The position numbers and the translations under genes were made by a program. DNA of 49,064 nt, from positions 1 through 49,064 of the forward strand of contig JALVXC010000065.1 in assembly GCA_027038275.1 (NCBI GenBank), in the 5' to 3' direction. Positions 1,281-34,307 of this stretch are shown here, piece by piece. Source of the stretch: Campylobacteraceae bacterium (GTDB lineage Bacteria; Campylobacterota; Campylobacteria; Campylobacterales; Sulfurovaceae). Numbering within the stretch: position 1 is the stretch's first letter; each line of letters starts with the position of its first letter. The notes below the pieces were generated by a model. That model was not told the DNA's origin and ran no database searches. It was given only the letters and a program-made list of their open reading frames with translations.

Positions 1281-1699
1281 TTTTCTTGTTTATGAACAAT
1301 GTTTGAATCCCCTAGCCTTTTTTATTTTTAAAGCTAGAGAGATTTACTGCTCATAACAAGATTTTCTCGTCCAATCACAAAGTTCGTTATCCCTGTTCGA
1401 CAAACGTATCAATGAAAAAAAATAGTTGGTTTCAAATTAAAAACTTTTAAATTGAAAGTCACTATTAGCAGAGCAATTTTTTCTAAGATTAAGAGAGGAG
1501 ATAAGGGATAACAACTTTGGGAGTGGATGAGATAAGCCCAATATGAATAGAGAATCTCTCTAGCTGATAAAAAATAAAAAGAGATAAAAACCGTAATCAC
1601 GTTTCCTTATTGCTCTTGGCTTAGTGATTAGAACAGGAACTGCGATGTACCATGTACTCGTCTCAAAGAGATTCAAGCACGACCCAAAGGGGAAGCCCC
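1281..1699. other. Structured element A (about 420 nt, homologous to element B)
   Basis: The stretch is non-coding and aligns with 34308-34969 over its whole length, except for an inserted domain in B. Shared blocks are TTTTCTTGTTTATGA at the left edge, TTGAATCCCC, GATTTTCTCGTCCAATCAC, GTTATCCC, GAGTGGATGAGA, GATTAGAACA, GTACCATGTACTCG and a right-edge GGGGAAGCCCC hairpin (1689-1699). Pairings kept with changed sequence include CTAGC with GCTAG near 1311-1337, GTTATCCC (1386-1393) with GGGATAAC (1505-1512), and a TTTCAA/TTGAAA hairpin near 1432-1460. Wobble-pair evidence is split between the strands: some stems favour plus, others minus. It sits 22 nt from the start of the minus-strand DUF2958 gene and 20 nt before a ParB-type site. 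Confidence 0.65.
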
Positions 1700-2972: not shown

Positions 2973-3521
2973 ATGATAAACAATATTCCAAAAGAGAACA
3001 GAAAAATAATCAAAATAACCACACTAATTACACTAATACTCACACTACTCTTCACCATAATCTATAAACTTGGCTACAGAGTAAATGTCTCAGAGAGCTA
3101 TCCAAGAGGTATCTATAAAACCATCACAAAAAAAGATATAGAACATGGAGATTTTGTAATGTTCTGTCCACCTAATAGTAGACTAATGCAAGAGGCACTA
3201 AAAAGAGGTTACATTTTAAAAGGAGTATGTGATGGAGGATTCTATCCACTACTCAAAAAAGTAGCAGCACTACAAGGAGATAGAGTAGAAGTAGCTAAAT
3301 ATGTCTACATAAATGGGAAAAAACAACCAAACAGTAGACTATATGCACATGACCCAAAAGGAAGACCTCTACCAAAAACCAAAGATAACAATATAACCGT
3401 TCCAAAAGGTTATATGTTCCTATTGAGTGATTACCATGAGTTGAGTTTTGATAGTCGATATTTAGGACTTATAGAGAAGAATGCAACTATAAGCCTAATG
3501 AAGCCTGTCTATATCTTTTAG
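2973..3521 (+). CDS. traF: TraF-type S26 signal peptidase / pilin maturation protease
   Basis: An N-terminal membrane segment (about residues 15-33) is followed by VSESYPRGIY, which carries the nucleophilic serine of the S26 family. LLKKVAALQGDRV carries the catalytic lysine, and a late YMFLLSDYHELSFDSRY block is typical of the conjugative subfamily. In RP4, TraF cleaves the C-terminal end of the TrbC prepilin and cyclises it in the periplasm. A TrbC homologue is present at 9984-10307, so the same role is likely. The start is ATG at 2973, 10 nt after the traM stop. The stop overlaps the parB stop by 4 nt (3518-3521): the two operons converge with no space for a separate terminator. Confidence 0.88.
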   Translation: MINNIPKENRKIIKITTLITLILTLLFTIIYKLGYRVNVSESYPRGIYKTITKKDIEHGDFVMFCPPNSRLMQEALKRGYILKGVCDGGFYPLLKKVAALQGDRVEVAKYVYINGKKQPNSRLYAHDPKGRPLPKTKDNNITVPKGYMFLLSDYHELSFDSRYLGLIEKNATISLMKPVYIF

Positions 3522-5323: not shown

Positions 5324-5345
5324 TTAATAACTCTAGCGTTATTAA
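5324..5345 (+). promoter_or_regulatory. 22-bp dispersed palindrome, copy 2, in the parA leader
   Basis: This is a full-length match, centred about 34 bp upstream of the parA ATG and just downstream of a TATAAT on the minus strand. A protein bound here would block the promoter or roadblock transcription, the expected position for an autoregulatory ParB operator. Confidence 0.8.
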
Positions 5346-5358
5346 AAATAGTAAATGG

Positions 5359-8568: not shown

Positions 8569-8955
8569 AATAGAACTCTTAATTTTATAATGAGTGTTGA
8601 TATTCGATTTAATAACTCTAGCGTTATTAAGTCATAAACTATCCTAATAAAAGGCTATACTATTTTTTATTTAAAGTTCTATATTAAATAAAAAATAAAT
8701 CAAAATATAGATATAAAATCGACACCCCCCTACTCTATTCCAACCAAAGAAAATATAACTTAATAATAATCTCCCTCATTAAAATCAAAAAAATAGCATA
8801 AAATAATCAAAAAATATTATAGTAAACACAAAGACAATAAATGATGAAAGCCTAATATCAAGGGATATAGAAGAAAAATATATTTTTTATTGTTAAAAGT
8901 TATTATTAAATATTATTAGTGTAAAATTGCAAATAAAAAAAGTGAGACTAAAAAT
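8569..8955. other. Intergenic region between rep and the trb operon
   Basis: The stretch is AT-rich and contains one full 22-bp palindrome (8609-8630) about 40 bp after rep. It must also carry the trb operon promoter, but several AT-rich -10-like hexamers occur and none stands out. A short C-run (about 8724-8731) is present. No gene was found. Confidence 0.5.
8609..8630 (+). promoter_or_regulatory. 22-bp dispersed palindrome, copy 3
   Basis: A full match between rep and trbB. It could regulate the trb operon from about 330 bp upstream or serve as a partition site near the origin. Confidence 0.75.
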
Positions 8956-9941: not shown

Positions 9942-9963
9942 TTAATAACTCTAGCGTTATTAA
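9942..9963 (+). promoter_or_regulatory. 22-bp dispersed palindrome, copy 4
   Basis: A full match in the 56-bp gap between trbB and trbC, 20 bp before the trbC start codon. It could tune expression of the pilin genes independently of trbB. Confidence 0.75.
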
Positions 9964-10612: not shown

Positions 10613-13071
10613 TGTTATCATTAAAAGATTACAGAACAACAATAATGGGCTTACCAGACCTATTAAACTATGGTTTTATTATAGATGAGGGTATCTACCT
10701 TAATAAAGATGGTTCTATTTCAGCAGGATTTTACTATAGAAGCCCTGATATTAATTCAGCAACACCACAAGAGAGAAATCATATTGCATCAAAGATGAAT
10801 GCTCTACTATCTAAATTTCAAAGTGGTTGGGTTATTCATGTAGATGCAATAAGAAAACCCATTAGTGACTATCCATTAAAACAAGAAAACTACTTTAACA
10901 ATCCCATTAGTAAACTTATAGACAACGAAAGAAGAGCATTTTTTCAAACTAAAGGAACTCACTATGAGTCAATTTTTTCTATAGTTTTAACCTATTTACC
11001 ACCCAATAAAGCAAAAGGTAAAATAGCTGACATTATGTTTGAAGATAGTACAGGTGAATATAAAACTGATTTCTCTGAAAAGATGTTAACAACCTTTAAA
11101 GCTAAACTCAACGAATTTCAATTGTTAGCTTCAAATATTGTAAAAATTCATCGTATGATGCCACATAAATATGAGGATGAATACCATCAAATACATATAA
11201 GAGATGACTTTTTAGAATTTTTGAACTTTGCATTAACAGGAGATTTTCACCCTATAAACATACCACCATTAGGTGCATATCTTGATACATATATTGGAAC
11301 TTATCAACTTTGGGGAGGAGTTACTCCTAAATTAGAAGATAAATATATTGGGCTTGTTGCTATTGATGGATTTCCACAAGAGAGTGTTCCTAATATGCTA
11401 GAACAACTTAGCAATTTAGAGACTTCTTACCGATGGAATACACGTTTTATATTTATGGACCAACATGAAGCATTAAAAGATTTGGAAAAATATAGACGTA
11501 AGTGGTTACAAAAAGTTAAAGGGTGGAAAGAGCAAATTTTTGGACTACCTATAACAAAAATAGATGAACACGCAAATATGATGGTTCAAGATATAGATAG
11601 TGCAATTGCAGAGACAAACTCTGGGTTATTAGCTTATGGGTATTACACAGGAAATATTATTTTAATGGAGGAGAGTAGGGAAGTCTTAGAATTTAACCTA
11701 AAAGAGGTAGTGCGTATCATTAATAATCTTGGATTTAATGCTCGTATAGAAAATATTAATGCTATGGAAGCATGGATTGGAACACTTCCATCTCACTCAA
11801 TCCAAAATATAAGAAGACCTCTTATAAGTACTTATAATTTAACCCATTTTATACCTCTATCAAGTGTTTGGGCAGGGGATAAATATAATCCATCGAACAA
11901 GTTTCTACCTAAATCACCAGCTCTACTTTATACTGTAACACAAGGTTCTACACCATTTAGATTAAATCTTCATATAGACGATATAGGACATACACTTATT
12001 TTTGGTCCAACAGGCTCTGGAAAATCAACACTTTTAGCTCTACTAGCAAGTCAAGCACAAAAGTATAAAAATGCACAAATATTTGCATTTGATAAAGGAA
12101 ACTCGCTCTATCCACTTACTGTTGCTACAGGAGGTATTCATTATGATATTGGAGGAAAAGATGAAACAACTCTCTCTTTTGCTCCTCTTGCTGAAATCAA
12201 CACAGACTATGAGCAATCTTGGGCTGAAACATGGATAGAATCACTCCTTGTGTTACAGGGGATAGAGATAACTCCAGAAAATAGAAAAAGTATTCATTAT
12301 GCAATGACAATTCACCGAAAATCTGAATCAAAATCATTAACAGACTTTGTATCAAATATTCAAGATGATAGATTATCTAATGCTTTAGAACACTATACTA
12401 TTTCAGGACCAATGGGTTATCTACTAGATGCAGAGGAAGATAAGTTATCACTTAGTAACTTTTCATGCTTTGAAGTAGAAGAGTTAATGAATTTAGGAGA
12501 TAAAAATCTAATTCCTGTTCTACTCTATCTTTTTCATAAGATTGAAAACAATCTTGATGGTCGTCCATCATTTCTTTTCCTGGATGAAGCGTGGATTATG
12601 CTTGGACACAAAGTTTTTAAAGAGAAGATTAGAGAGTGGTTAAAAGTATTAAGAAAAGCAAACTGTGCAGTCATCTTAGCTACACAATCACTATCAGATG
12701 CAGCCCATTCTGGTATATTAGATGTACTACAAGAGTCTTGCCCTACAAAAATATTCTTACCAAATCCAAACGCATACAATAAAGGTTCTGAACATCAATT
12801 AGGACCTTATGACTACTATAAACAGTTTGGACTTAATGATACACAAATTAGGATTATTGTTAATGCTACACCTAAAAAAGAGTACTACTATCAAAGTCCT
12901 ATGGGAACTAGACTATTTAACCTTGCATTAGGTCCTATAGCTCTATCTTTTGTAGGAGTAAGTGGGAAAGATGATATAAAAAAAATAAAGCAACTCTATA
13001 AAAAATATGGCAAAAGTTGGGTTACTTATTGGCTTCATTATAGGGGTGTTAAGTATAAACATCTACTTTAA
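10612..13071 (+). CDS. trbE: TrbE/VirB4 secretion ATPase
   Basis: At 819 aa it is a full-length VirB4/TrbE. The N-terminal half matches the CagE/TrbE region. The C-terminal ATPase has GPTGSGKST (residues 465-473), FAFDKGNSLYPL, FLFLDEAWIML (Walker B, about 653-663) and LATQSLSD. The protein energises assembly of the secretion channel and pilus at the inner membrane. It starts with GTG at 10612-10614, overlapping the trbD stop, with AGGG upstream. The stop codon lies inside a 22-bp palindrome. Confidence 0.96.
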   Translation: MLSLKDYRTTIMGLPDLLNYGFIIDEGIYLNKDGSISAGFYYRSPDINSATPQERNHIASKMNALLSKFQSGWVIHVDAIRKPISDYPLKQENYFNNPISKLIDNERRAFFQTKGTHYESIFSIVLTYLPPNKAKGKIADIMFEDSTGEYKTDFSEKMLTTFKAKLNEFQLLASNIVKIHRMMPHKYEDEYHQIHIRDDFLEFLNFALTGDFHPINIPPLGAYLDTYIGTYQLWGGVTPKLEDKYIGLVAIDGFPQESVPNMLEQLSNLETSYRWNTRFIFMDQHEALKDLEKYRRKWLQKVKGWKEQIFGLPITKIDEHANMMVQDIDSAIAETNSGLLAYGYYTGNIILMEESREVLEFNLKEVVRIINNLGFNARIENINAMEAWIGTLPSHSIQNIRRPLISTYNLTHFIPLSSVWAGDKYNPSNKFLPKSPALLYTVTQGSTPFRLNLHIDDIGHTLIFGPTGSGKSTLLALLASQAQKYKNAQIFAFDKGNSLYPLTVATGGIHYDIGGKDETTLSFAPLAEINTDYEQSWAETWIESLLVLQGIEITPENRKSIHYAMTIHRKSESKSLTDFVSNIQDDRLSNALEHYTISGPMGYLLDAEEDKLSLSNFSCFEVEELMNLGDKNLIPVLLYLFHKIENNLDGRPSFLFLDEAWIMLGHKVFKEKIREWLKVLRKANCAVILATQSLSDAAHSGILDVLQESCPTKIFLPNPNAYNKGSEHQLGPYDYYKQFGLNDTQIRIIVNATPKKEYYYQSPMGTRLFNLALGPIALSFVGVSGKDDIKKIKQLYKKYGKSWVTYWLHYRGVKYKHLL

Positions 13072-13089
13072 TAACGCTAGAGTTATTAA
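13068..13089 (-). promoter_or_regulatory. 22-bp dispersed palindrome, copy 5
   Basis: Full match in the reversed core orientation, overlapping the trbE stop codon and ending 20 bp before trbJ. Confidence 0.75.
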
Positions 13090-13109
13090 AATCAAAAAAA
13101 AGGAAAAGC

Positions 13110-17203: not shown

Positions 17204-17909
17204 AAAAAATCTATTAATAACTCTAGCGTTATTAATGATAAATGGATGCAGTGAACTACTAAATAACAAAGAGCATAAACACTTTATTTCACAAGTTAGT
17301 TTAAAACATTTCAAACTTGATAAAACAATTACACAAGATATGATACATTTCATAAAAAACTACTATCTTATCCCCAAAACTACTTTTTATTTTCAACTTG
17401 GTTCATCAGTCTATGCTCATGATGCTATTATTGAAGAGGGACTACGTAGTGTAGGATATGGAGTTAGCTATATAAGAAAGAGGGGGACTATCCCATTTGC
17501 TTATAAAATAGATTTTATTGATAACAATATTATGAGAACAACTTATAATATTGGTTCAGCTACACTAAGTCGCCTCTATAGCATAGAGGGGAATCAAGCT
17601 ACTCCAATATCTGCTTTTACTGCTAGGGGTTTTAAAAAACGTATTTACCAAAACTATCCCAACAGCTCATATAGTCTAAAAAAAGCCATTGTCTCTATTC
17701 CTGTTCTAAATGTACGAAACTCTCCATCATTAAAGGGAAAAATCATAGGAAAATTTTATAAAGATTCACTAATCTATGTAGAAGAGCCTATCATCAATTC
17801 AGGTAAAAAGTGGAGTAGAGTAATCCTAACAAATTTACATAACAAAGATATATCATCAAACATAGAAGATAGATATGTTGCTACACGATATATCCAATAC
17901 ATCAAATAG
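17190..17909 (+). CDS. trbH: TrbH/VirB7-position lipoprotein with C-terminal SH3-like domain
   Basis: The signal peptide MKIIKKNLLITLALLMINGC ends at a lipobox cysteine (ING-C). I use ATG at 17190, with GGGGAG six nt upstream, rather than the ATG two codons earlier that touches the same ribosome-binding site. The middle (GSSVYAHDAIIEEGLRSVGYGV) recalls TrbH of IncP. The last 70 residues (SIPVLNVRNSPSLKGKIIGKF, then KKWSRVILT and YVATRYIQYI) look like a bacterial SH3 domain, which often binds peptidoglycan. It should anchor the TrbG-TrbI core in the outer membrane. The 22-bp palindrome (17214-17235) is encoded inside the signal peptide. Confidence 0.8.
   Translation: MKIIKKNLLITLALLMINGCSELLNNKEHKHFISQVSLKHFKLDKTITQDMIHFIKNYYLIPKTTFYFQLGSSVYAHDAIIEEGLRSVGYGVSYIRKRGTIPFAYKIDFIDNNIMRTTYNIGSATLSRLYSIEGNQATPISAFTARGFKKRIYQNYPNSSYSLKKAIVSIPVLNVRNSPSLKGKIIGKFYKDSLIYVEEPIINSGKKWSRVILTNLHNKDISSNIEDRYVATRYIQYIK
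17214..17235 (+). promoter_or_regulatory. 22-bp dispersed palindrome, copy 6, inside the trbH signal-peptide codons
   Basis: An exact match that also encodes part of the hydrophobic core (LLITLALL) of the trbH signal peptide. Exact retention of all 22 bases within a coding stretch argues for selection on the DNA site. Confidence 0.75.
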
Positions 17910-17918: not shown

Positions 17919-19175
17919 ATGAATAGAAATTTAAGTACAAATATCTCACCAACAGGACAAAATAGTAGTGTAAATGTAAAAAAATTAAGTAAAATGCCTA
18001 TTATTATAATATCCATCATACTCTTAATTATCTTCTTAGGACTTGGTTATGCAACTGTTAAACGTACAGAAAAATCAAAAATTGAGGAAAATAAACAAGA
18101 CAAAATCAGAAATGATGGAGAGACTCTAGCTAGTAATTTTATCTCAAAACTTTATCAATCAAGAAAAATACCAGAAGAAAAAAAAGAGAGAGTAGAGATA
18201 AATAATACATTAGCACCAATAGAAAAAAAAACTTTAACATTGACAAAAGAGCCAAACCCTTTAAACTCACCAAGCTCAGATACAGAACTAGAAAAGAGGT
18301 TGTTAGAGGAGAAATTAGCCTTAATTAAGTATAAAAAAGAACTCTATAAAACTGCTCTATCTGCACCTACAAAAGTGCGATTAAAAGGTTTTAATAATAA
18401 CTCAATGGAAAATATAAGTTTAACTCAACCACATAGTACTATTCCACCTAGTCCATCTGATATATATACCCAAATAGCAAAAGCTTATAAAAGTGCTAAT
18501 CAAACAAAAGAAAAAAAATATTTAAATCAAAATGAAAGATTTTTAAATGAACAACACTCATCATATAACTATCTCAATGCAAAGAAAACAAAACCTATAT
18601 CACCTTATGAGATGAAAGCAGGAACACTTATTCCATCAATACTTATTACAGAGATAAACTCTGACCTCCCAGGACCAATAAAAGCACAGGTAAGTGAAAA
18701 TGTTTTTGATACTGCAACAGGTAATCATCTACTGATTCCACAAGGTTCAATACTCTTAGGAGTATACTCTTCAAATATACAATATGGTCAAAATAGAGTA
18801 TTAATCGCTTTTAATCGAATTGTCTTTCCAGATGGGCAAACTCTAAATATAGGAGCAATGAATGGAGTTAACCAACAAGGAGTGGCAGGATTTAATGACC
18901 AAGTGAATAATCACTATCTAAAAATATTTGGTTCAGCTATTTTAATGGGGGCTATTACAGGTGGTATTGCCTCAGCTGATACAACTCAACAAAATCAGTA
19001 TATCGAAAGCAATAGGCAAAAAATGATAGGAGCATTAATTTCTGAATTAGGACAAGTAGCACGACAGATGATACAAAAAAATATGAATATAGCTCCTACT
19101 CTTGAAATAAGAGCAGGATATAAATTTAATATCTTTACAACCAAAGATATTATACTTGAACCATTAGAGTATTAA
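17919..19175 (+). CDS. trbI: TrbI/VirB10 energy-sensing core protein
   Basis: A cytoplasmic N-terminus and a single membrane segment (about residues 26-47, MPIIIISIILLIIFLGLGYA) are followed by a charged, proline-containing periplasmic linker and the conserved C-terminal TrbI domain: AGTLIPSILITEINSDLPGPIKAQVSENVFDTATGNHLLIPQGS and an IAFNRIVFPDGQTLNIG block. VirB10 spans both membranes and links ATP hydrolysis to channel opening. The start is ATG at 17919, nine nt after the trbH stop. The length of 418 aa is normal. Confidence 0.95.
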   Translation: MNRNLSTNISPTGQNSSVNVKKLSKMPIIIISIILLIIFLGLGYATVKRTEKSKIEENKQDKIRNDGETLASNFISKLYQSRKIPEEKKERVEINNTLAPIEKKTLTLTKEPNPLNSPSSDTELEKRLLEEKLALIKYKKELYKTALSAPTKVRLKGFNNNSMENISLTQPHSTIPPSPSDIYTQIAKAYKSANQTKEKKYLNQNERFLNEQHSSYNYLNAKKTKPISPYEMKAGTLIPSILITEINSDLPGPIKAQVSENVFDTATGNHLLIPQGSILLGVYSSNIQYGQNRVLIAFNRIVFPDGQTLNIGAMNGVNQQGVAGFNDQVNNHYLKIFGSAILMGAITGGIASADTTQQNQYIESNRQKMIGALISELGQVARQMIQKNMNIAPTLEIRAGYKFNIFTTKDIILEPLEY

Positions 19176-19179
19176 CAAA

Positions 19180-19965
19180 ATGAAAAAAATATTTCTTGTT
19201 TTACCTCTTATCTATACACTCCTTTTAGCAGATGTTTCACTAGAGTTAACTACTTTAGCAAAAAAATATCTTGGAGGTAAATATATTTGGGGAGGAGAGA
19301 CCCCTAAAGGATTTGACTGTTCAGGATATACGCAATATATCTTTAAAAAAATAGGTATTGAGCTACCACGTACTGCCTATGAACAATCAAAAATAGGAGA
19401 ACCTGTTACAGGAAGTCTACAAAAAGGAGACCTACTTTTTTTCAATACAGACCCATCAAGAGGAGTACCTGTTACTCATGTTGGTGTCTACTTAGAAAAT
19501 GGGAAATTTATTCATGCAGCAAGTCAAAAAAAAGGAATTATAATATCGGCACTTAGTAAAAATTATCAACGTACTTACCTTGGAGCAAGAAGAGTATTAC
19601 CAAAAGAAACAAATAAAACTAAACCAATTGAGTTACCTAAAAACTTTTTTAATGTTTCTAAAAAAGCTATGGTAGCCCCTACAAAAGTAACATTAAACTA
19701 TGACCTATATAGAATCTACAAAGGTCAATATATGAGAGAATCAGAAATAAAGGAACTTAAAAAAATGGAAAAAGATAGTAAAACAAAAATAATTGAAAAA
19801 ATAGATTTAAAACAACAACAAGAACTACAAAAAGAGATTAATCAAATAAGAATACCATCTATTCCAATAACCTACTCTGCAAAAGAGGCAGAGGAGTTGG
19901 GTGCATTTGAAGAGAGAGCATTAAGTGAAGAAGATGCAAAAGAAGCAATTGAAGAGAGTAGATAA
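19180..19965 (+). CDS. NlpC/P60 cell-wall peptidase (VirB1/TrbN stand-in)
   Basis: A signal peptide (MKKIFLVLPLIYTLLLA) precedes an NlpC/P60 domain: YIWGGETPKGFDCSGYTQYIF with Cys47, LQKGDLLFF, THVGVYL with His100 and KFIHAASQ with His112. The C-terminal 120 residues are charged and helical. NlpC/P60 enzymes cut stem peptides of peptidoglycan. At this place in secretion operons one normally finds a lytic transglycosylase (VirB1/TrbN), so this enzyme probably opens the wall for channel assembly by a different chemistry. It follows trbI by 4 nt and precedes the primase gene by 3 nt, so it belongs to the trb operon. Confidence 0.88.
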   Translation: MKKIFLVLPLIYTLLLADVSLELTTLAKKYLGGKYIWGGETPKGFDCSGYTQYIFKKIGIELPRTAYEQSKIGEPVTGSLQKGDLLFFNTDPSRGVPVTHVGVYLENGKFIHAASQKKGIIISALSKNYQRTYLGARRVLPKETNKTKPIELPKNFFNVSKKAMVAPTKVTLNYDLYRIYKGQYMRESEIKELKKMEKDSKTKIIEKIDLKQQQELQKEINQIRIPSIPITYSAKEAEELGAFEERALSEEDAKEAIEESR

Positions 19966-19968: not shown

Positions 19969-22491
19969 ATGAAGAAAAAAGAAGATAAAACACTCTCCTA
20001 TATCGAAAGGGTCTCTAATGAAATTATAGAAGCATTAGAGCAGGGTACTGCTCCTTGGATTAGACCATGGAGTGGGTCAGAGATTAGAGATAATGCTCCT
20101 TTTAATCCAATTACAGGAAAACAGTATGAAGGAATCAACTTTATTAATTTGAGTATTACAGGAATGGCAATGGGTGGAGACCCTCGTTGGATGACATTTA
20201 AACAAGCACAGTCTATTAATGCACAAGTAAGAAAAGGTGAAAAGGGGACAGCCATTCAATATTGGAAATTTACAAAACAGATAGATAAGCTTGATGAAGA
20301 TGGAAATAAAATTTTAGACAAAAATGGTGAACCTATTAAAGAGACTATACGATTAGCCAATCCACAAGTATTCTATGCAACTGTCTTTAATGCCTCTCAA
20401 ATAGATGGACTAAAACCATTAAAAGAGGATTTGGGAATAAAAGAGGTTATTACAAAATTTACTCCAATAGAAGCAGCTGAAAAAATTTTAAATAACTCTA
20501 AAGCCAACATAATCCATATTGGAGGGAATAGAGCATTCTATTCATCATCAAAAGACCAAATACAACTCCCTTTAAGAGAACAGTTTAATAGCGAAATAGA
20601 TTACTACTCAACAGCTCTACATGAATTAGGACATTGGACAGGTCATGAGAGTAGATTAAATAGGGATATGTCTCACCCTTTTGGTTCTGAGGGATATGCA
20701 AAAGAGGAGCTACGAGCAGAGATAGGCTCATATATGTTATCTTCAAAAATAGGAATAGATTTTGACCCCTCACAACATCATGCCTATATTGAGAGTTGGG
20801 TCTCTATTTTAGAGGACAAGCCAAGTGAGATATTTAAAGCCTGTAGCGATGCCTCAAAAATTGTAAATTTTGTAACTAGCCTCCAAGAAGAGCATAAACT
20901 AGAAACTATGCAAGAGGAGACCATCGACGATAACTTAACTCCAAAAGAGGAGTTCTCTAATATTATAGAAGGAGCAGTAACACAAATGATAGATAAAGAA
21001 CTAAAGTTAACCCAAGTAGAAACAGCTCTTCCTAATCTGACAAAAAATATAGAATTAGAACAGTTAGAAACTTCTATTACAAAAGCAAAAGATATTCTTA
21101 TTCATAATCAAATAGACGAGCCTGTTCAAGAAGAGATAAAAGAGCTTATTTCTCTTCTTTCAGACATTAAAGATTCATTAGAAAAAGAGCATTACAAAAA
21201 AATAGAAGATAGTGATTTGAGTCAAAATAGAATAAATAATGAAAAAATTTATGAGAGAGATACCTATTTGCTTGTTCCATATAGCGAAAAAGACCAAGCA
21301 AAACAAGCAGGTGCAAAGTGGGATAAATTCAAAAAATCTTGGTATGCACCAAAAGGTTCATCTATCGACAAATTTATAAATTGGAGTATAACAACTCAAG
21401 AGCAAAAAATAACAACCACAACCTCTTTATCATCTCAAAAAGCAATTAATTTATTTAAAAAAGCTTTAGAATCTCATGGCTTAATAGTCAATGAAGAGCC
21501 TATTATGGATGGAAAAATACATAGAGTACCTGTCATTGGAGATAAACGAGGAAAAAAATCAGGTGCATATGTAGGATATAGTGACGGTGTTCCTGCAGGA
21601 TTTATACAGAACCATAAAACAGGAGTAAAAGAGAATTGGAAAGCGATAGGTTATGAGTTTTCCAATGGACTAACAAAAGAGGATGTTGAACGTCAAAAGC
21701 TCATCAATAAAACTAAAAGATTAGAGAGAGAACAAGAACAACTACAAGAACAAGAGACTGCATCAATGGAGGCACAAGAGACATTTAAAAATGCTCGTGA
21801 AGCATCAAATGACCACCCTTATCTAAAATTAAAAGGTGTTAAAAATTATAATTTGAGAATGGATGAAAGAGGAAATCTTCTAATGCCATTAAGAGATATT
21901 GATGGAAAACATTGGTCTAATCAAAAGATAAATGTAAACTTTAAAGGATTTGATAAATATGGGAAAAAAGAGGGAAACTTTTTTATTATAGGGAATCAAA
22001 ATCTACATCAAGTCCAAGAGTTTATCATAGTAGAGGGGTATGCTACAGGAGCTACAATACATGAAGCTACACAAAAGACTGTTATTGTCGCTATAGATTC
22101 AGGGAATCTCATACCTGTAACAGAACAATTAGATAAAAAATTTCCAAACAGTACCATTCTGATAGCTGCAGACAATGATATTCAACAAGAGTTAAAGGGA
22201 AAGGAGAATGTAGGGTATAAAAAAGCTCTTGAAGCTGCAATAAGAACACATCGAAATATTATTTACCCCTCATTTTCTAATGAAGAGATAAAAGCTAACT
22301 ATTCAGACTTTAATGATTTAGCAAAATCAAAAGGATTAAAAGAGGTTAAGACAATTATTGAAGCATCTTTAGAAAAGTCTAAAAGATTACAACAAAAGGC
22401 AAAAGCTACACAAAAAGAGTTAAATATATCTAATCAAAAAAGGCTGAAACGAGAAGTTATTAGAAAAGATACACAAGGAATAAGACGATAA
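19969..22491 (+). CDS. ArdC-type antirestriction / TraC-type Toprim primase fusion
   Basis: The 840-residue multidomain protein begins with an ArdC-like ssDNA-binding domain (residues 1-150: WIRPWSG, NPITGKQYEGINFINL, DPRWMTFKQA, VRKGEKGT). A zincin metallopeptidase domain follows with the HELGH motif (TALHELGHWTGHESRL, about residue 215). After a helical linker comes a DUF5710-like module (YLLVPYSEKDQAKQAGAKWD). Next is a TraC-type segment (DGKIHRVPVIGDKRGKKSGAYVGY) and a Toprim domain (EFIIVEGYATGATIHEA, IAADNDI). ArdC protects incoming DNA; TraC primase is sent to the recipient to prime the complementary strand. This protein may do both early in transfer. It is the last gene of the trb operon and a degenerate palindrome follows it. 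Confidence 0.9.
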   Translation: MKKKEDKTLSYIERVSNEIIEALEQGTAPWIRPWSGSEIRDNAPFNPITGKQYEGINFINLSITGMAMGGDPRWMTFKQAQSINAQVRKGEKGTAIQYWKFTKQIDKLDEDGNKILDKNGEPIKETIRLANPQVFYATVFNASQIDGLKPLKEDLGIKEVITKFTPIEAAEKILNNSKANIIHIGGNRAFYSSSKDQIQLPLREQFNSEIDYYSTALHELGHWTGHESRLNRDMSHPFGSEGYAKEELRAEIGSYMLSSKIGIDFDPSQHHAYIESWVSILEDKPSEIFKACSDASKIVNFVTSLQEEHKLETMQEETIDDNLTPKEEFSNIIEGAVTQMIDKELKLTQVETALPNLTKNIELEQLETSITKAKDILIHNQIDEPVQEEIKELISLLSDIKDSLEKEHYKKIEDSDLSQNRINNEKIYERDTYLLVPYSEKDQAKQAGAKWDKFKKSWYAPKGSSIDKFINWSITTQEQKITTTTSLSSQKAINLFKKALESHGLIVNEEPIMDGKIHRVPVIGDKRGKKSGAYVGYSDGVPAGFIQNHKTGVKENWKAIGYEFSNGLTKEDVERQKLINKTKRLEREQEQLQEQETASMEAQETFKNAREASNDHPYLKLKGVKNYNLRMDERGNLLMPLRDIDGKHWSNQKINVNFKGFDKYGKKEGNFFIIGNQNLHQVQEFIIVEGYATGATIHEATQKTVIVAIDSGNLIPVTEQLDKKFPNSTILIAADNDIQQELKGKENVGYKKALEAAIRTHRNIIYPSFSNEEIKANYSDFNDLAKSKGLKEVKTIIEASLEKSKRLQQKAKATQKELNISNQKRLKREVIRKDTQGIRR

Positions 22492-22500: not shown

Positions 22501-22522
22501 TTAATAACTCTAGCATTATTAT
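22501..22522 (+). promoter_or_regulatory. 22-bp dispersed palindrome, copy 7 (two mismatches)
   Basis: It reads like the other copies but carries A for G in the right half-site and T for the final A. It lies between the primase gene and rloA, about 110 bp upstream of the rloA start. Confidence 0.6.
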
Positions 22523-22631: not shown

Positions 22632-23993
22632 ATGTTAATTAGATTAATAGTAAACAATATTCTATCTTTTGGTAAAGAGCAAGAGTTTAATATGTTGCCT
22701 ATGCCAAGACTTAGAACTTTAAAAGAGCATAAATACAATATTGATGGTTTTGATATTTTAAAAATGGCTTCAATCTATGGTGCAAATGGAGCAGGTAAAT
22801 CAAATTTAGTAAAATCTATGATAATACTTGAAGATTTAATTGTAGATGAGATGCCTCTAATTAACTTTTCAAAAAATAAAAGATTTAAATTTTCAGATGA
22901 AAATGAACCTCAAACTTTTATTATTGAATTTGTTCAAGAGGGAAAAGCTTTTTTATATGGTTTAGAGATTTTGAACAATATTGTTACAACGGAAGAGCTT
23001 TATCTCTCTGGATTAGGAAAAAAAGATAATAAGTTACTGTTTGAACGAACAACAGATAAAGATAGCAAAAAAATTATATTTAAAACACCTCTATTAGAAG
23101 ATGAAGAGGGGAAAATTTTAATAAAAGTTATAGAGAAAAACCTTGCAAAACCCAACAAAACAATTTTTAAACTCTTAACTACACTTGATAAACCTGAACT
23201 AAAAGAGATTGAAACTGCACTAAATTGGTTTAAAAATAGTTTAGTCATTGTAACACCTGATGCAAAACCATCTGCTTTAGTTCATAAGATAGATACCAAT
23301 AGTAATTTTAAAATTTTTACCGAAGACTTAATGAAATCTTTTCATATCGGTATCAATAGAGTTGAAGTAGAGAAAAAAACTTTAAAAGAGTTTTTTGGAG
23401 AAAATGATTTAAAAAAATTAGACAAAATAATAGAAGAGTTAGATAGCTCTAAAAATAAAATGATTGGACTTCAAATCAATGGAAATCAAGAGGTCATTAT
23501 TGCTAGAGAGCATGATGATATATATGTTAAAAAACTTCAAGTTTCTCATATAGGAAAAGATAATAAAGAGGTAATGTTTGATTTAGATGAAGAGTCTGAT
23601 GGAACAATTAGACTGTTAGATTTTGCTCCTGCTTTTCAAGATATTGCTATGAATAGAAAAGTCTATATAATTGATGAGATTGAGAGAAGTATTCATCCAC
23701 TTCTTATCAAAGAACTCATTAGTAAATTTTCAAAAGATAATCAATCAAATGGACAACTTATCTTTACAACACATGAATCCAACCTATTAGACCAATCTAT
23801 CTTTAGACAAGATGAAATTTGGTTTGCCGAAAAAGATAAAAGTGGTTCTACAGATTTATACTCTCTTAGTGACTACAAGGAACACAATACCATTGATATT
23901 AGAAAAGGGTATCTTTTAGGAAGATATGGCTCTATCCCTTTTCTTGGTAATTTAAAAGATTTAAATTGGCATGATTATGAGATTGAAAAATAG
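22632..23993 (+). CDS. rloA: RloA-like AAA (OLD/SMC-type) ATPase
   Basis: The protein starts MLIRLIVNNILSFGKEQEF and has an ABC/SMC-type P-loop, YGANGAGKSNLVKS (residues 49-62). Late motifs include SDGTIRLLDFAP and VYIIDEIERSIHPLL (Walker B, about 342-356), then LIFTTHESNLLDQ (H-loop). This is the AAA_15/AAA_21 fold of abortive-infection ATPases. It overlaps the next gene, an RloB homologue; rloA and rloB are known beside restriction loci in Campylobacter. By analogy to PARIS and OLD/Gabija-type pairs, the ATPase may control a Toprim effector in phage defence. The start is ATG 22632 with AAAAAGG upstream. It has its own promoter region (22523-22631). Confidence 0.88.
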   Translation: MLIRLIVNNILSFGKEQEFNMLPMPRLRTLKEHKYNIDGFDILKMASIYGANGAGKSNLVKSMIILEDLIVDEMPLINFSKNKRFKFSDENEPQTFIIEFVQEGKAFLYGLEILNNIVTTEELYLSGLGKKDNKLLFERTTDKDSKKIIFKTPLLEDEEGKILIKVIEKNLAKPNKTIFKLLTTLDKPELKEIETALNWFKNSLVIVTPDAKPSALVHKIDTNSNFKIFTEDLMKSFHIGINRVEVEKKTLKEFFGENDLKKLDKIIEELDSSKNKMIGLQINGNQEVIIAREHDDIYVKKLQVSHIGKDNKEVMFDLDEESDGTIRLLDFAPAFQDIAMNRKVYIIDEIERSIHPLLIKELISKFSKDNQSNGQLIFTTHESNLLDQSIFRQDEIWFAEKDKSGSTDLYSLSDYKEHNTIDIRKGYLLGRYGSIPFLGNLKDLNWHDYEIEK

Positions 23994-24642
23994 AAATCTT
24001 TTATATACAAGAGAAGAACCCACAAAAGATGCTAAACTTATTATTATCTATTGTGAGGGCAAAAAGAGAGAGAAAGATTACTTTAACTACTTTTCAGAGA
24101 TAAGCTCCAAGATAAGATTAGAAGTAGAAGCACCATCTCAACACGATAATAACTCTCCTAGTGGATTATTTCAAAAAGTTATTAGTCACACTATCAAATC
24201 CAAAGAGAATCCAAATCCAAAATATAATATTGATGATGAGATTTGGATAGTTTTTGATACAGATAAGTGGGGAGAACAGATTAATACAGTAAGAGAAGAG
24301 TCTAAAGAGTATAGTTGGAATATAGCTCAAAGTAATCCATGCTTTGAAGTTTGGTTGTTTTATCATCTCTTTGAATTTGAAGAGTTTGAAGGAATGGAGA
24401 ATCCAAATAGATGGAAAACATTTCTAAATAAAAAAATATCAGGTGGCTTTAGCAGTAAAAAACACCCAATTTTTGTTAAAACAGCAATAGAAAATGCAAA
24501 AAAAGTGTTTAATGAAAGTATAACTATTGGCTCAACAGAAGTATATAAGTTAGCAGAGAGTTTTTATCCTTACGTGTCTGATAAGATTGAAGAGGCACTA
24601 AAAAATCATATTAATAACTCTAGCGTTATTAAAGAAGAGTAA
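23971..24642 (+). CDS. rloB: RloB-like Toprim-fold protein
   Basis: After a short N-terminus the protein shows LIIIYCEGKKREKDYFNYF (Toprim-like acidic CEGK, about residues 23-41), DEIWIVFDTDKW (acidic DxD strand, about 87-98) and NPCFEVWLFYHL, the arrangement of RloB proteins. These are believed to be nuclease-type partners of RloA ATPases; the substrate is not known. ATG 23971 overlaps rloA by 23 nt; a second ATG at 23977 is equally possible. The last codons (HINNSSVIKEE) are written over an exact copy of the 22-bp plasmid palindrome, so the module is embedded in the backbone control system rather than freshly inserted. Confidence 0.85.
   Translation: MIMRLKNRNLLYTREEPTKDAKLIIIYCEGKKREKDYFNYFSEISSKIRLEVEAPSQHDNNSPSGLFQKVISHTIKSKENPNPKYNIDDEIWIVFDTDKWGEQINTVREESKEYSWNIAQSNPCFEVWLFYHLFEFEEFEGMENPNRWKTFLNKKISGGFSSKKHPIFVKTAIENAKKVFNESITIGSTEVYKLAESFYPYVSDKIEEALKNHINNSSVIKEE
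24611..24632 (+). promoter_or_regulatory. 22-bp dispersed palindrome, copy 8, inside the rloB C-terminus
   Basis: An exact 22-bp match that encodes INNSSVI near the C-terminal end of rloB, ending 10 nt before the end of the stop codon. Confidence 0.75.
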
Positions 24643-24762: not shown

Positions 24763-25503
24763 GTGTTAAAACCTATTCAAAAAAAACTAAATCAACTCTA
24801 CAAAGAAGAGTTAAAAGAGAGAGTGATTACCACTCTAAAAGATAAAGATAAAATATCTGCTCCTCTACTTCTTAATCTATATCCAAGTTACCTTACTTCT
24901 GACATAAAGATTATGTATGTGGGAAAGGAGACGAACCATTGGCTTACTCATCACTCAATCCCCGATGATGAAAAAGGGCTTGAAGGTATTTATAATTGTG
25001 GGAAACTAGATTTAACGCGACTCTTAGAGCGATATAAAGAACAGATGGATACTCCTTCAAAATGGAAATCTAATTCTTTTTTTAAGCAATATACCAATAT
25101 ACAAAAACAGCTTTTAGGAGAAGAGGTAGGAAATATTGTTTGGAATAACCTCTTTAAGATGTCTTACGATAGAGGAAAAGGTTACTCTAAAACTTCATTG
25201 GGACACTCAGAACTACAAAAGATTTCAAAAAAGATATTTTTAAAAGAGCTAGAGATACTCTCTCCTGATATTATTATTTTTGTAACAGGTGCAAGTTATG
25301 ACAAGGTTATAAAAGAGTATTTTAAAAATGAGTATGAGACTATAGAGATTATTATTCCTAGAAAACTCTGGAAGTTTAAATATAAAGGGATTACTTGCTA
25401 TAGAACAGTTCACCCAGACAGTATTAGGTTTACAAAAAAAGAGGCTAGAGTTGACTACTATCAGATGATAATTGATGATATTAAAAAAGATAAAGGGTTA
25501 TAA
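24763..25503 (+). CDS. Uncharacterised protein, uracil-DNA-glycosylase-like in appearance
   Basis: The 246-residue soluble protein has IKIMYVGKETNHWL in the first third (compare the VGxE strand-loop of UDG-fold proteins), IVWNNLFKMSYDRGKGYS in the middle, LEILSPDIIIFVTGASYDKVI and a late TCYRTVHPDSIRF with a conserved-looking His. This order resembles small UDG-superfamily-like proteins of phages and plasmids; I cannot assign catalysis. The start is GTG at 24763 with AGGAT upstream, following an AT-rich region with likely promoters. It is directly followed (ATG after TAA, no gap) by the zinc-ribbon-like gene, so the two are an operon. Confidence 0.55.
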   Translation: MLKPIQKKLNQLYKEELKERVITTLKDKDKISAPLLLNLYPSYLTSDIKIMYVGKETNHWLTHHSIPDDEKGLEGIYNCGKLDLTRLLERYKEQMDTPSKWKSNSFFKQYTNIQKQLLGEEVGNIVWNNLFKMSYDRGKGYSKTSLGHSELQKISKKIFLKELEILSPDIIIFVTGASYDKVIKEYFKNEYETIEIIIPRKLWKFKYKGITCYRTVHPDSIRFTKKEARVDYYQMIIDDIKKDKGL

Positions 25504-26127
25504 ATGACTATTAAAAGAAGTAACCTTAAGTGTCCTATATGTGAAGAGACTATATTTGGTTCAGAGATGTCATCAGGTTTTGTTATGGGACTAAAAACAG
25601 ATTTAGCTAGGATAGGACTCTGTATTGCTTATCCTAATGCAAATATCTGCAAACATTGCAACTATGTATATATAGATAAAAGATTAAAGGTTAACAAAAC
25701 CAAAGTTAAAAAACTATTAGCTACTCCCTCCTATAAAGAGCTTTTTCTAAAATATTCAAATATAGAAAAAGGCTACAATCCTTTCAAAATTATTTATAAG
25801 ATATATCAATACCTAGAGATTGACATCTATAAACAGCATCTTATGCTACTCTATAGCTACTACAAAGATAACTCTCTAAAAAATTTTAAACAGTTGATTG
25901 ATGAGATAGAAAAAGATTTAACACTCTATCAAAATCATCTTTTAAAGGGCTATCCAATAGATTTCTATAGAGGAGAATACTACCGACGTATTGGTGAGTT
26001 TACCCAAGCCAAAGAGATTTTTGAACAGATTGTAAAAGAGAATAGAGAGGAGAAGTATCTTAAAATAGCAAACTTTCAACTTCAACTTATTGCTCAAAAA
26101 GATAGAGAGTGTAGAACTGTTGAATAA
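25504..26127 (+). CDS. DUF2225-like zinc-ribbon / TPR-like protein
   Basis: Two CxxC pairs (KCPICEE at residues 9-12 and ICKHCNY near residue 49) suggest a zinc ribbon like that of DUF2225 proteins. The remaining 150 residues are helical, with a tetratricopeptide-like end (YRRIGEFTQAKEIFEQIVKEN). DUF2225 has no established function. The ATG follows the stop of the preceding gene without a gap. The gene converges on the hydrolase gene across a shared hairpin terminator. Confidence 0.55.
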   Translation: MTIKRSNLKCPICEETIFGSEMSSGFVMGLKTDLARIGLCIAYPNANICKHCNYVYIDKRLKVNKTKVKKLLATPSYKELFLKYSNIEKGYNPFKIIYKIYQYLEIDIYKQHLMLLYSYYKDNSLKNFKQLIDEIEKDLTLYQNHLLKGYPIDFYRGEYYRRIGEFTQAKEIFEQIVKENREEKYLKIANFQLQLIAQKDRECRTVE

Positions 26128-26704: not shown

Positions 26705-26878
26705 TATTTTTACTCTTTCTGTATCTACTTAATATAATCTAAAAAATAAATTATACATTTAAATAATAAATTGTAAAAGTACAAGAACTAAATATTTACT
26801 ATTTGCTTATCAACTTACTATCATTCCTTTCTTTTTTTTGAAATAATAGTGCTTCTCTTATTTATATAGCTTTTCATT

Positions 26879-26900
26879 TTAATAACTCTAGCGTTATTAA
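26879..26900 (+). promoter_or_regulatory. 22-bp dispersed palindrome, copy 9
   Basis: A full match 11 bp beyond the traB-like stop codon, the last copy seen going rightwards. None was noticed between 27 and 49 kb. Confidence 0.75.
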
Positions 26901-26911
26901 CTACCAATATC

Positions 26912-29979: not shown

Positions 29980-31575
29980 CTAAATCCCCATTCCCTTTTT
30001 ACGCTCTTGGTCCTGAATCCTCTTCATTCTCCTGTCCACAAACTCAATCTTAAGGTCATAACGCTCATTAACCATCATCAGACGCTTTTTAAACTCTAAG
30101 CTCCCTTGAACATCTAAACGCTTACCAAACTTCTCTGTAGCCATCTCTAAAGAGGTAAGTATGGCTCTATCACTATCTTCAATGGTCACTTTTAGGTAAG
30201 AGCCTGTATCAACTATCTTTCCATGCTCTTCAATCTCATAGACTGCTTTTCCCTCTTTGGTTATCTGTAGCTTTAGACTCTCCCAAATCTTATGATTGAT
30301 TTTACCTTGTGGGTGTCGTAAGATATTCTCATTGGGTTTAAATACCATTTTAGTTCTTCTAAGAGCTTCAAGAGCCAACTCATCTCCAGCTAATGCTCTC
30401 TCAAGTAGAAACTCTTTATAGGAGAAGAGTCTATTTGCTTTATGAATAGCGTTTCTCTTTTTTGCAAACCGTTCACTAAGCTCTTTTAACTCTGCTCGTC
30501 TATGAGCAAATATATTTTGTCTTTGTTGATACTTTTGAGAAGAGGAGAGGGTAGGGTGATGGTTAATCTTCTCTAGTTGCTCCTTATATTTTAACCCTAT
30601 ACTCTCACGTAGTGCTAACCTACTCTTTTTCTCTAAACTAAGCTCCTCTTTTTTAGTGACTCTTCTTCTTTTGATAAGCTCTTGATACTCCTCCCATAGA
30701 GAGGATTTAGGCATACCAAAGCTCTTTTTAACCCTAGAGCTTGTCTTATAGCTTTTAAACGCTCCAAATCGCTTCTCTAAGCTCTTTTTAGACAATATCC
30801 TATGAACATCACTCGCTTTTACAAAGAGCTTTCTCTTCTTATCTCCAATCACTAAACCATTGGCTCTTGGTTTTATCTCTAAATTGTATTGGGCTAAGAG
30901 TTCCTGTAACTCTTTTAAATCACTTTGAGGATTTGCTATAAGCTCTTTTATCTCCTCTAAAACCTCCTCTTTAATCCATGTTAAGAGGTTCTTCATACCT
31001 GAGTGTATCTCTTGGTCTCTGTATCTATGCTCTTTGGTTTTAGAGTTACTATTTTCACTCTCTTTTAACGACACCTTTTTATCCGTAAATAGCTCGGTAG
31101 GGTGGTTATCTCTCTTTAATTTATACCTCTCTTCTAGCTCTTGAGCCTTTTTTTGTAACTTCATTTTTGACTTCCAAGGGTCTACTAAAAGGTTTGTATG
31201 TGGATTTAATCGATTAACAGCTATATGAATATGAAAGTTATTGGTATTGTTGTGAGTTACAGAGAGTCTATGGTGTTCTTGCATTCCTAAAACCTTTAAT
31301 AGCTCCTCCTCAATAACCTCTAAAACTTCCCTAGAGGGCTTCTCCTCCTCTTGAAAAGATACTACAAGATGCAGACTCTTATCACTCTTTACCATCTGAT
31401 TTAACTCTTGCATCTGTTTAATATAGGAGATATTCTCCTCTATCTTCTCAAATGGACAATTAGAAAAAGCGTAATGCTCTAACTTCTCACCTCTATTTTT
31501 AACATCAAGTAGATAGTTTGCTAAACCTCTAAATGAACCTTTACCCTTTGAAGCAACCTGTTTTACTATCACCAT
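29980..31575 (-). CDS. traI: TraI-type MOBP relaxase
   Basis: Tyr21 (LANYLLD) fits the catalytic tyrosine position of RP4 TraI. SVTHNNTNNFHIHIAVNRL (about residues 105-123) is the metal-binding three-His motif, and the rest of the N-terminal 170 residues matches the relaxase domain. The C-terminal part is long, basic and helical. The enzyme nicks oriT at 32259/32260 and pilots the strand. The ATG directly follows the traJ stop (TAGATG), its AAGGAG ribosome-binding site lying in the last traJ codons. Codons for FTDKKVS contain an exact Rep iteron core (31069-31087). Confidence 0.93.
   Translation of the reverse strand: MVIVKQVASKGKGSFRGLANYLLDVKNRGEKLEHYAFSNCPFEKIEENISYIKQMQELNQMVKSDKSLHLVVSFQEEEKPSREVLEVIEEELLKVLGMQEHHRLSVTHNNTNNFHIHIAVNRLNPHTNLLVDPWKSKMKLQKKAQELEERYKLKRDNHPTELFTDKKVSLKESENSNSKTKEHRYRDQEIHSGMKNLLTWIKEEVLEEIKELIANPQSDLKELQELLAQYNLEIKPRANGLVIGDKKRKLFVKASDVHRILSKKSLEKRFGAFKSYKTSSRVKKSFGMPKSSLWEEYQELIKRRRVTKKEELSLEKKSRLALRESIGLKYKEQLEKINHHPTLSSSQKYQQRQNIFAHRRAELKELSERFAKKRNAIHKANRLFSYKEFLLERALAGDELALEALRRTKMVFKPNENILRHPQGKINHKIWESLKLQITKEGKAVYEIEEHGKIVDTGSYLKVTIEDSDRAILTSLEMATEKFGKRLDVQGSLEFKKRLMMVNERYDLKIEFVDRRMKRIQDQERKKGMGI
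31069..31087 (+). repeat. Stray Rep iteron inside traI
   Basis: ACACCTTTTTATCCGT, identical in its 16-base core to the oriV iterons, lies within the traI coding sequence. Confidence 0.7.
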
Positions 31576-31965
31576 CTACTCCTTAGATGGCTCTAAGAGC
31601 TGACGAGCTATCTCTAGCAGTTCACTCTCTTTATCGATTAAATCATCTACTAAATCTGATATATCCTCATAACGTCTATCTCCTAAATTACCCCATCTAC
31701 CATTTTCACTCTCTAGCCATAGTTTAAAGAGTCCTCCTAAGCGTCCTAAATCTGCTCTGCACTTTACAAGTTCTGATAAGGCTCTTTGGTCTACTACGGA
31801 TTTAATAGGGTAGTTCAATCCAAGATTTCTAAGATAGGCACTAGAGCTAAGTCCTGTATTGACTGCTTTCTCTTTTATCTCTTCATACTCTCTATCTGTA
31901 CATCTTGTATTGATATATCTATTTTTTAACTTTTTACTCTCTTTTTTTACTTTGGAACTTTTCAT
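31576..31965 (-). CDS. traJ: TraJ-type oriT-binding relaxosome protein
   Basis: The 129-residue basic protein has a ribbon-helix-helix-like N-terminal part (INTRCTDREYEEIKEKAVNTGLSSSAYLRNLGL) and CRADLGRLGGLFKLWLESENG, which matches the DLGRLGGLLKLWL segment of RP4 TraJ. TraJ binds the inverted repeat beside nic and recruits the relaxase. An imperfect inverted repeat of the right kind (32213-32249) lies upstream of the nick. The start is ATG at 31963-31965 with GAGGAG. It is coupled to traI and divergent from traK across oriT, as in RP4. Confidence 0.92.
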   Translation of the reverse strand: MKSSKVKKESKKLKNRYINTRCTDREYEEIKEKAVNTGLSSSAYLRNLGLNYPIKSVVDQRALSELVKCRADLGRLGGLFKLWLESENGRWGNLGDRRYEDISDLVDDLIDKESELLEIARQLLEPSKE

Positions 31966-32049: not shown

Positions 32050-32212
32050 GTTTTGGTTCTCTTTTTTTATTCTTTCTGTTTTTTGTTTCTTTTAAAAAAC
32101 TATTTTTTATAAAGAACTTCTTTTTCTTTTATCTCTTTTTTTAATAGCTCTTTTTTTCAAAAAGCTTCTTTTTTCTGTTGAGCCATCTTTTGGCGAATAA
32201 GGTTCAGGACTA

Positions 32213-32262
32213 GAATGTGTCGTAAAAATTTATTTTTTGTGTCACGTTCTCCCATCCTGCCC
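32213..32262 (+). other. oriT: Origin of transfer (oriT) with RP4-type nic
   Basis: CCATCCTGCCC at 32252-32262 matches the RP4 nick core ATCCTG/C, placing the cut between 32259 and 32260 on the plus strand. Ten bp to its left ends an imperfect inverted repeat, GAATGTGTC (32213-32221) and GTCACGTTC (32241-32249), the expected TraJ-binding repeat. TraJ and TraI genes lie to the left and traK to the right, the same geometry as RP4. By that model the relaxase stays on the 5' C and the strand enters reading rightwards, so traK and 32.4-35 kb form the leading region. The rest of 31966-32422 is T-rich and otherwise featureless. Confidence 0.85.
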
Positions 32263-32422
32263 TTTTTTCTTTTATTTTTTCTTTACAATAGTACTCTATT
32301 TTTATTTAAATTTACTATTTTTTAGTTTTTTTTGTTAAAATATCAAAAATAGAAAACTATTGGAAACTTTTGTAAACTATCGAATAGATTTTGGGGTTTA
32401 CTCCAAAAAGAGAGGTGATTTT

Positions 32423-32773
32423 ATGGCTAGTGGTAAAATGGCTGTTGGTGAAGCTGTTATTGAGTTTTATGCTTCACTTGATACTATTAAAGATTATTAT
32501 GAGAATAGGGGTTATAGAAAAATCTCACTTCTTCACAAGGCTCTCAAAGAGAAGCTTGGTTGGAAGATGGGCTATGATACTTTTCGGTATCACTTTAATA
32601 AAGAGTTTAAGAAGAGTAAAAACTCTTCTAAGGAGCAGAGTAATAAAAATAGTGAGGCTTCCTCTTCAAAGAAGAAAGCTCATGAGCCTATTATTGCTAC
32701 TTTTTCTATGAGTGATATTAAGCCTTATAATCCTCATACTTCTCCTATTGATGAGAGTAGGATTTTGAGGTGA
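32423..32773 (+). CDS. traK: TraK-like oriT-binding accessory protein
   Basis: From the ATG at 32423, preceded by GAGAGGTGA, the 116-residue protein begins MASGKMAVGEAVIEFYASLDTI. KISLLHKALKEKLGWKMGYDTFRYHFNKEFKKSK follows, the pattern of RP4 TraK and related small relaxosome proteins (a conserved domain ending in YETFxRHVKR-like sequence). A Ser/Lys-rich linker and a short tail complete it. TraK bends and wraps oriT DNA beside nic. An upstream extension of the frame (from 32360) has no ribosome-binding site. It is followed by a strong terminator and stands alone, whereas RP4 has traK-traL-traM together. Confidence 0.82.
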   Translation: MASGKMAVGEAVIEFYASLDTIKDYYENRGYRKISLLHKALKEKLGWKMGYDTFRYHFNKEFKKSKNSSKEQSNKNSEASSSKKKAHEPIIATFSMSDIKPYNPHTSPIDESRILR

Positions 32774-32842: not shown

Positions 32843-33667
32843 TTAGAATAGTCTTCCTGTTGCGAATATCTCTAGTTCTTTGTTAGTGTAGAGTAGTTTA
32901 TTCTCTATGGTATCGCAGGGTAGGGTGATTTTTTTTGGTTGGGGGTGTTGTTCTATTTGCAAATCATTAGTGGCTCTATTTTGTTTCTCGTTTTTCTCTT
33001 CTTCTTTTTTTATTTGGTTATGGTTTTGGGTTTGTCTATTTGAGGCGTTCATAATATATTTTGGGGTGTACCATATTGAGAATTTTTCATTGGATAGGGC
33101 GTTACCGTGGATTACCTCTGCTGATATTCCCAATAGGGATAGTTGGATAAAGCTCATGTGTACGCAGAGTATATCTACATCTATTGCTTGTACTTCCATT
33201 ATATTTTGGTATTCAAATCCATACTCTCGTTTTATTATATCTGCTCTTGCTATTATCATTACTCCAGAGCCACAGCATGGCTCTACTATTGACTCTTTGT
33301 TTTTGATTGGCTCTCCTAGAATGGAAGCCATAAAGTTTGATATGTGGTATGGGGTGAAGAATTGACCTTTATATTTTGAGCCTAGATTTAGGTTCATAAA
33401 GCATTCACCTAGAAAGTCACCCATTTTATCCTCTAAGCCCATTGCTAGGTAGCTTAGGAGTTTTGGGAATATTTCGGCTATATTTTTTTTATATTTTGAG
33501 ATGGTTTGCAGGTACTCTTTTTCAAGCTCTTCACTTCTTAGGAAGGGTTGGTATAGGCTTATAGCTGTCATTTTACAGAAGTCTGTGAAGAGTTCCCATG
33601 CTTGGAACTCATAGCAGTTTGACTCTATTAGTTTTATAAACTCATTTTGTGCTTTTTTATAGTTCAT
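32843..33667 (-). CDS. N6-adenine methyltransferase-like protein, catalytic motif not visible
   Basis: The 274-residue protein has an N-terminal helical part, GQFFTPYHISNFMASIL (about 100-116) and VEPCCGSGVMIIA (SAM-binding motif I, about 127-139), then AIDVDILCVHMSFIQLSLLGI, as in HsdM-type enzymes. The expected NPPY/NPPF motif is absent: the strand after HGNALS reads FSIWYTPKYIM. Plasmid and ICE relatives show the same change, so methylation activity is doubtful. The C-terminal third is polar and Gln/Asn-rich. It is the third gene of a minus-strand operon below structured element B and would enter a recipient early, where DNA modification or antirestriction genes are common. Confidence 0.8.
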   Translation of the reverse strand: MNYKKAQNEFIKLIESNCYEFQAWELFTDFCKMTAISLYQPFLRSEELEKEYLQTISKYKKNIAEIFPKLLSYLAMGLEDKMGDFLGECFMNLNLGSKYKGQFFTPYHISNFMASILGEPIKNKESIVEPCCGSGVMIIARADIIKREYGFEYQNIMEVQAIDVDILCVHMSFIQLSLLGISAEVIHGNALSNEKFSIWYTPKYIMNASNRQTQNHNQIKKEEEKNEKQNRATNDLQIEQHPQPKKITLPCDTIENKLLYTNKELEIFATGRLF

Positions 33668-34251: not shown

Positions 34252-34307
34252 AATTTTTAAATCCTTTCTATTCTTTTTTATAGAGATACAAACTCTTTTA
34301 TGATTGA

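Follow-up and report, generated by a model that had tools for sequence, protein, structure and literature searches.

The window, by which we mean the whole stretch of 49,064 nucleotides analysed here, is an open-ended contig encoding a relaxase, a T4SS, TraG, ArdC, Rep3 and ParA/ParB, a gene content that gives good support to the first-pass annotation's placing of two homologous structured elements, A and B, on the same plasmid. The features on which the following account draws are:

about 226-485, + strand: third element, upA, corresponding to the internal domain of B standing alone, with no 3′ block
724-963, − strand: 79-aa ORF, second gene behind A, no family
908-1258, − strand: 116-aa gene behind A, in no Pfam or NCBIfam family; its GTG start is 22 nt from A
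1281-1699, + strand: element A, comprising a 5′ fold-back domain (1281-1581) and a 3′ block (1618-1697)
1284-1361, + strand: hairpin I of A, on the side towards the start codon of the 908-1258 gene
1362-1535, + strand: hairpin II of A, including GTTATCCC/GGGATAAC; helices 4-7 of the 5′ domain alignment
1618-1697, + strand: 3′ block of A, a multi-branched folded domain with a Flavo-1-like outer motif
29980-31575, − strand: MobA/VirD2-TraI-type relaxase
31576-31965, − strand: NikA-like relaxosome protein
32200-32265, + strand: oriT, made up of an imperfect inverted repeat and the nic site (CATCCTG^C; expected cut at 32259/32260)
32843-33667, − strand: N6 DNA methyltransferase, leading-region gene behind B
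33691-33882, − strand: 63-aa ORF behind B
33892-34251, − strand: 119-aa gene directly behind B, ATG start (the ORF list extends it to 34356)
34308-34969, + strand: element B, comprising a 5′ domain (34308-34618), an internal domain (about 34640-34878) and a 3′ block (34878-34967)
1716-1748, 5324-5347, 8601-8630, 9942-9963, 13067-13092, 17213-17235, 22501-22521, 24610-24633 and 26875-26909: copies of a palindrome-like repeat, about 22-33 bases long around AATAACGCTAGAGTTATT, about nine across the plasmid, mostly near gene ends

Elsewhere on the contig, the best PADLOC matches of 22632-24642 are to the AbiLi/AbiLii defence pair, TIR-domain proteins are encoded at 35946-38435 and 44623-45828, and 19969-22491 encodes an ArdC-type protein fused to a Toprim domain, possibly a transferred primase.

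A and B align across their 5′ domains (A 1280-1532 against B 34307-34552; 75% identity, E 9e-25) and in both parts of the 3′ block (1619-1660 against 34879-34920, 90%, E 9e-10; 1669-1699 against 34939-34969, 87%); by genome search, the 5′ domains are 72% and the 3′ blocks 77% identical. These alignments confirm that A is homologous to B minus an internal domain, the extra part of B being about 34640-34878; this domain is indeed missing from A, but rather than belonging to B it is an independent module, found alone as upA (which a small hairpin at about 198-220 precedes) and at 3167-3435 of a contig from another genome of the genus (G022:C82), and joined to a 3′ block on a second contig of the window's own genome (G000:C48). 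The 3′ block likewise stands alone, on contigs C26 and C80 of G022. A search of other genomes of the genus for the conserved blocks returned copies of both types: B-type counterparts with 92% (G032:C135) and 86% (G022:C1) identity, and an A-type counterpart with 91% (G022:C82). Set against the 72% that separates A from B, these values of 86-92% show that the two are not very recent duplicates; since each type has counterparts elsewhere, A and B diverged before their host plasmids did. In genome G013, contig C42 carries two large structured regions (approximately 18644-19700 and 25010-26000) that end in the same 3′ block and are otherwise unalignable with A or B; the first of them contains a near-perfect sigma-70 promoter (TTGACT-17-TATAAT). 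Blastn of the elements against plasmid and phage collections gave no match, an Rfam search of the window at the gathering cut-off and at E up to 10 returned nothing relevant to A, B or upA, and IMG/VR scans for the conserved blocks found none except a generic Flavo-1-like core.

Structure-aware comparison bears out the compensated stems that had been read from A and B by inspection, double-sided changes being far above chance in all three modules. Five aligned copies of the 5′ domain show changes on both sides in 14 of 94 pairs (25 cells, against a shuffled mean of 10.4; none of 500 shuffles reaches 25), and 92.8% of cells are paired, compared with 48-54% for slid partners. The 3′ block has seven doubly changed pairs (13 cells, against 5.3 in shuffles) and 88.9% of its cells paired (slid partners, 20-41%), while the internal domain keeps its pairing with both sides changed in 16 of 80 predicted pairs. 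Where that domain is free-standing, in a comparison of upA, its G022:C82 counterpart and the G000:C48 copy, one stem retains pairing despite double change in 10 of 21 pairs, and across three stems both sides have changed in 14 of 44 pairs, whereas sliding the partners yields no more than 3 of 44. The stem written CTAGC/GCTAG in A and CCTCC/GGAGG in B belongs to hairpin I, which is paired in 97.5% of cells over the five copies. This gene-facing part has two alternative pairings, either within hairpin I or to the distal end of the 5′ domain; in A, the right part of hairpin I can instead pair with about 1543-1581. Compensatory change above both shuffled and slid controls supports the earlier inference of selection on structure. 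By eye, the core sites lie in the wrong order for an integron attC, and no intron consensus that would indicate a self-splicing intron is visible.

The 3′ block recalls Flavo-1 RNA (RF01705), sharing its outer motif (UUAGGGAUU...AAGCCCGACCC...GGGUAA), its core GGGAUU/AAGCCC stem followed downstream by GACC, and a similarly laid-out junction; its inner hairpins differ, however, and Flavo-1 was reported from Bacteroidetes. Neither A nor B is scored as Flavo-1, even at E 10, and we treat the likeness as resemblance, not membership. A covariance model of the block identified two remote candidates (L022 and L023), which are marginal on that score alone over 397 genomes and whose similarity rests also on shared exact motifs; L023, a remote relative, passes the Flavo-1 gathering cut-off (44.9 against 42), and none of three further loci scanned for Flavo-1 (L194, L196 and L198) does so. 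The core pattern TTAGGGATT...AAGCCCGACC occurs in at least 117 contig stretches (L054-L170), several per genome and nearly all from Bacteroidota by record title, and 4 of the 15 core-pattern loci scanned pass the Flavo-1 cut-off; the motif family is much wider than the Rfam Flavo-1.

We compared the two strands partly by means of energy models. For B, RNA energies give −220 kcal/mol on the + strand against −156 on the − strand, a difference of more than 60 kcal/mol, and ssDNA energies give −114 against −87; by the latter, the + strand is favoured in all eight copies. Single (1×1) mismatches within stems comprise 15 G·T and one A·C, although the copies are related and these are not 16 independent events; the strictest column count, with G-U forbidden in the fold, gives G·T against A·C as 9:4, weakly for the + strand. 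The + strand is thus the favoured working strand, more clearly for B and upA than for A. When 300-base windows were folded as ssDNA across the whole contig, the top windows were A, upA and both halves of B, each more stable on the + than on the − strand, with oriT among those ranked next. As a control, the leading region of the F plasmid was scanned in the same way. Its top windows included oriT and the sites of two single-strand promoters, Frpo1 and Frpo2, which lie upstream of ygeA and of ssb; at these two sites folding favoured the transferred strand. The elements were again top windows in G032, G022:C1 and G000:C48; on G022:C82 the upA counterpart ranked top and the A-type copy lower, and on G022:C26 and C80, which have the 3′ block only, the elements were not top windows.

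The orientation of transfer can be read from the region upstream of nikA, where an inverted repeat is followed on the + strand by CATCCTGC, an IncP/IncI-type nic. The same nic motif occupies the same place beside nikA and the relaxase in G032:C135 and G022:C1, and the repeat arms, which differ between plasmids, look by eye to be complementary still, in the window and in G022:C1 at least. Relaxases of this type cut between G and C, and the part of that strand downstream of the cut is transferred first. Because nic lies on the + strand and its downstream side enters first, the + strand is the transferred strand and the leading region extends rightward of 32.3 kb. B is therefore a leading-region element on the transferred strand, as are its counterparts in the two other plasmids, with 2,048 nt from nic to the start of B in the window, 1,963 in G032 and 2,784 in G022:C1. 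A lies at least 18 kb from nic by contig order on this open-ended contig, and for A and upA it is the strand alone that agrees. Between nic and B the genes read back towards oriT, the one exception being a short ORF on the + strand (32360-32773); in G022:C1, unlike the window, a ParA/TraL-like gene (2248-2976, L200; 41% identity) stands between oriT and the methyltransferase.

The elements lie directly upstream of genes whose template is the transferred strand, and the 5′ edge of each is turned towards the start of a minus-strand gene. The distances to the start codon originally noted, 22 nt in A and about 57 nt in B, hold, and in four of the five A- and B-type copies (A, its G022:C82 counterpart, and the B-type copies of G032 and G022) the gap is about 22-26 nt and is taken up by the ribosome-binding site. 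Such a gap has no room for an ordinary promoter, so that transcription has to begin within the element or farther out; the regulatory job proposed earlier for the elements, acting on the adjacent minus-strand gene, is supported. The DUF2958 operon said to adjoin A, by contrast, was not found, and the genes flanking A have no Pfam or NCBIfam family. On A's other side a + strand operon encodes ParA-like, TraM-like and signal peptidase proteins, which in Campylobacter coli plasmids are traL, traM and lepB; it has a promoter-like site of its own at 1785-1813 (10/12, extended −10). The 119-aa gene directly behind B occupies the same place in G032 and G022 and also occurs near the element of G013, where the order on C42 is an element with the same 3′ block, a 113-aa ORF, the homologue of the 119-aa gene, a second methyltransferase and then an SSB gene. 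A tblastn search with the gene behind B against plasmids gave no match. Leading-region methyltransferases have a precedent (PMC7736820), and a homologue of the one here lies in the leading region of the Yersinia ruckeri MOBP plasmid pYR4, adjoining ArdA and then mobA-traI.

Taken together, these features suggest, at a probability we put at roughly 0.6, that A, B and upA are ssDNA promoter or single-strand-initiation elements of the Frpo/ssi kind, not homologous to Frpo, that probably switch on the adjacent genes in the first moments after transfer. B has the position, strand and structure of such an element, and A and upA have the strand and structure. Single-strand promoters have been demonstrated for the F plasmid (PMC9849209) and proposed widely for leading regions (PMC11541004). 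Like Frpo1 and Frpo2 (ssiD) of F and ssi2 and ssi3 of ColIb-P9, the elements form large fold-backs of the transferred strand, situated for B in the leading region, and stand immediately before genes reading towards oriT; they too come in several copies per plasmid, and they give the same signature as the F sites in the ssDNA folding scan. Unlike these, they are longer and modular, built of a 5′ domain, an optional internal domain and a 3′ block; they differ from F Frpo also in sequence (blastn of the Frpo1 and Frpo2 regions against A, B and upA found no similarity), in −35/−10 boxes that we do not recognise, and in their Campylobacterota hosts. As the plasmid entered the recipient single-stranded, the elements would fold into a duplex recognised by the host RNA polymerase, and RNA started there would read back towards oriT through the adjacent genes, namely the methyltransferase and putative establishment or anti-defence genes; this RNA may prime second-strand synthesis too, and the elements would fall silent once the plasmid was double-stranded. 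Where the promoter box lies, and what the internal domain and the 3′ block contribute, we can only infer.

The weakest point of this single-strand promoter reading is the lack of recognisable −35/−10 boxes: no convincing pair for minus-strand transcription was seen in the hairpin, and a consensus scan performed at chance level. Promoters of Campylobacterota often have no −35. Also against it, the stand-alone 3′ blocks and the C48 copy do not lie ahead of an opposite-strand gene, and at the 5′ edge of every copy there is a −10-like box that reads the other way (TATAAT in G022:C82, weaker in A and B), just as the production of a + strand RNA would require. The main rival reading takes A and B to encode a large structured noncoding RNA. 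It would be made from the + strand, from the 5′ edge to a point after the 3′ block, and would act in trans or regulate the plasmid. Folding and covariation would suit such an RNA equally well, and the outer motif of the 3′ block is common to an RNA family of Rfam. GOLLD, ROOL and ARRPOF are large ornate noncoding RNAs of several hundred nucleotides, with a complex fold, that are carried on mobile elements; A and B are like them in size, fold and carriage, but the window holds no Rfam match of any kind. Matches to consensus promoters nevertheless occur at chance frequency, neither region scanned contains a terminator-like site, the strictest count gives no clear G-U excess, and an RNA leaves unexplained why the elements sit within a few bases of the start codon of an oppositely oriented gene, why they occupy the transferred strand and why B is in the leading region; we regard it as possible, though on balance unlikely. 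The first-pass reading stands as to selection on structure and a regulatory job, and is changed in two respects: the internal domain is a module in its own right, and, because the fold is favoured on the + strand, the one that enters the recipient, the likelihood of an ssDNA element is no lower than that of an RNA.

Were the elements instead long 5′ leaders, acting as cis-regulatory RNA of the minus-strand genes, the short gap to the start codon would be accommodated, as the mRNA must begin in or beyond the element; yet it is the opposite strand that folds better in every copy by ssDNA energies, and in B by RNA energies also, which makes this most improbable. Recombination among the modules, with the 3′ block alone in two contigs and the internal domain alone or with a 3′ block, would fit a repeat of mobile or REP-like type that uses its hairpins for its own spread and lies near genes incidentally, and Flavo-1 matches in F. 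psychrophilum lie sense or antisense to transcripts indifferently (PMC9723704). A and B, however, occupy orthologous positions in several plasmids, and in every case open to judgement the element strand is the one transferred, so that we think a repeat of this kind very unlikely. A more far-reaching version of the single-strand promoter reading, which we hold to be distinctly doubtful, is that the elements form an undescribed modular family of single-strand promoters, unrelated to Frpo in sequence, with two alternative folds in the gene-facing part and a Flavo-1 fold as the 3′ module; if so, Flavo-1 itself would work as folded ssDNA, not as RNA.

With single-strand promoters, a plasmid can produce anti-defence proteins before it comes under attack by the host. 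A survey of such promoters relied on similarity to five known sequences or on E. coli −35/−10 boxes (PMC11541004), criteria by which unrelated ones would be missed. Our findings suggest that Campylobacterota have such a device in a form not homologous to the known ones, and that elements of this kind can be found by folding energy combined with strand and position relative to oriT. The genes behind them, of which the methyltransferase is the sole one with a known family, become candidates for roles in plasmid establishment or anti-defence.
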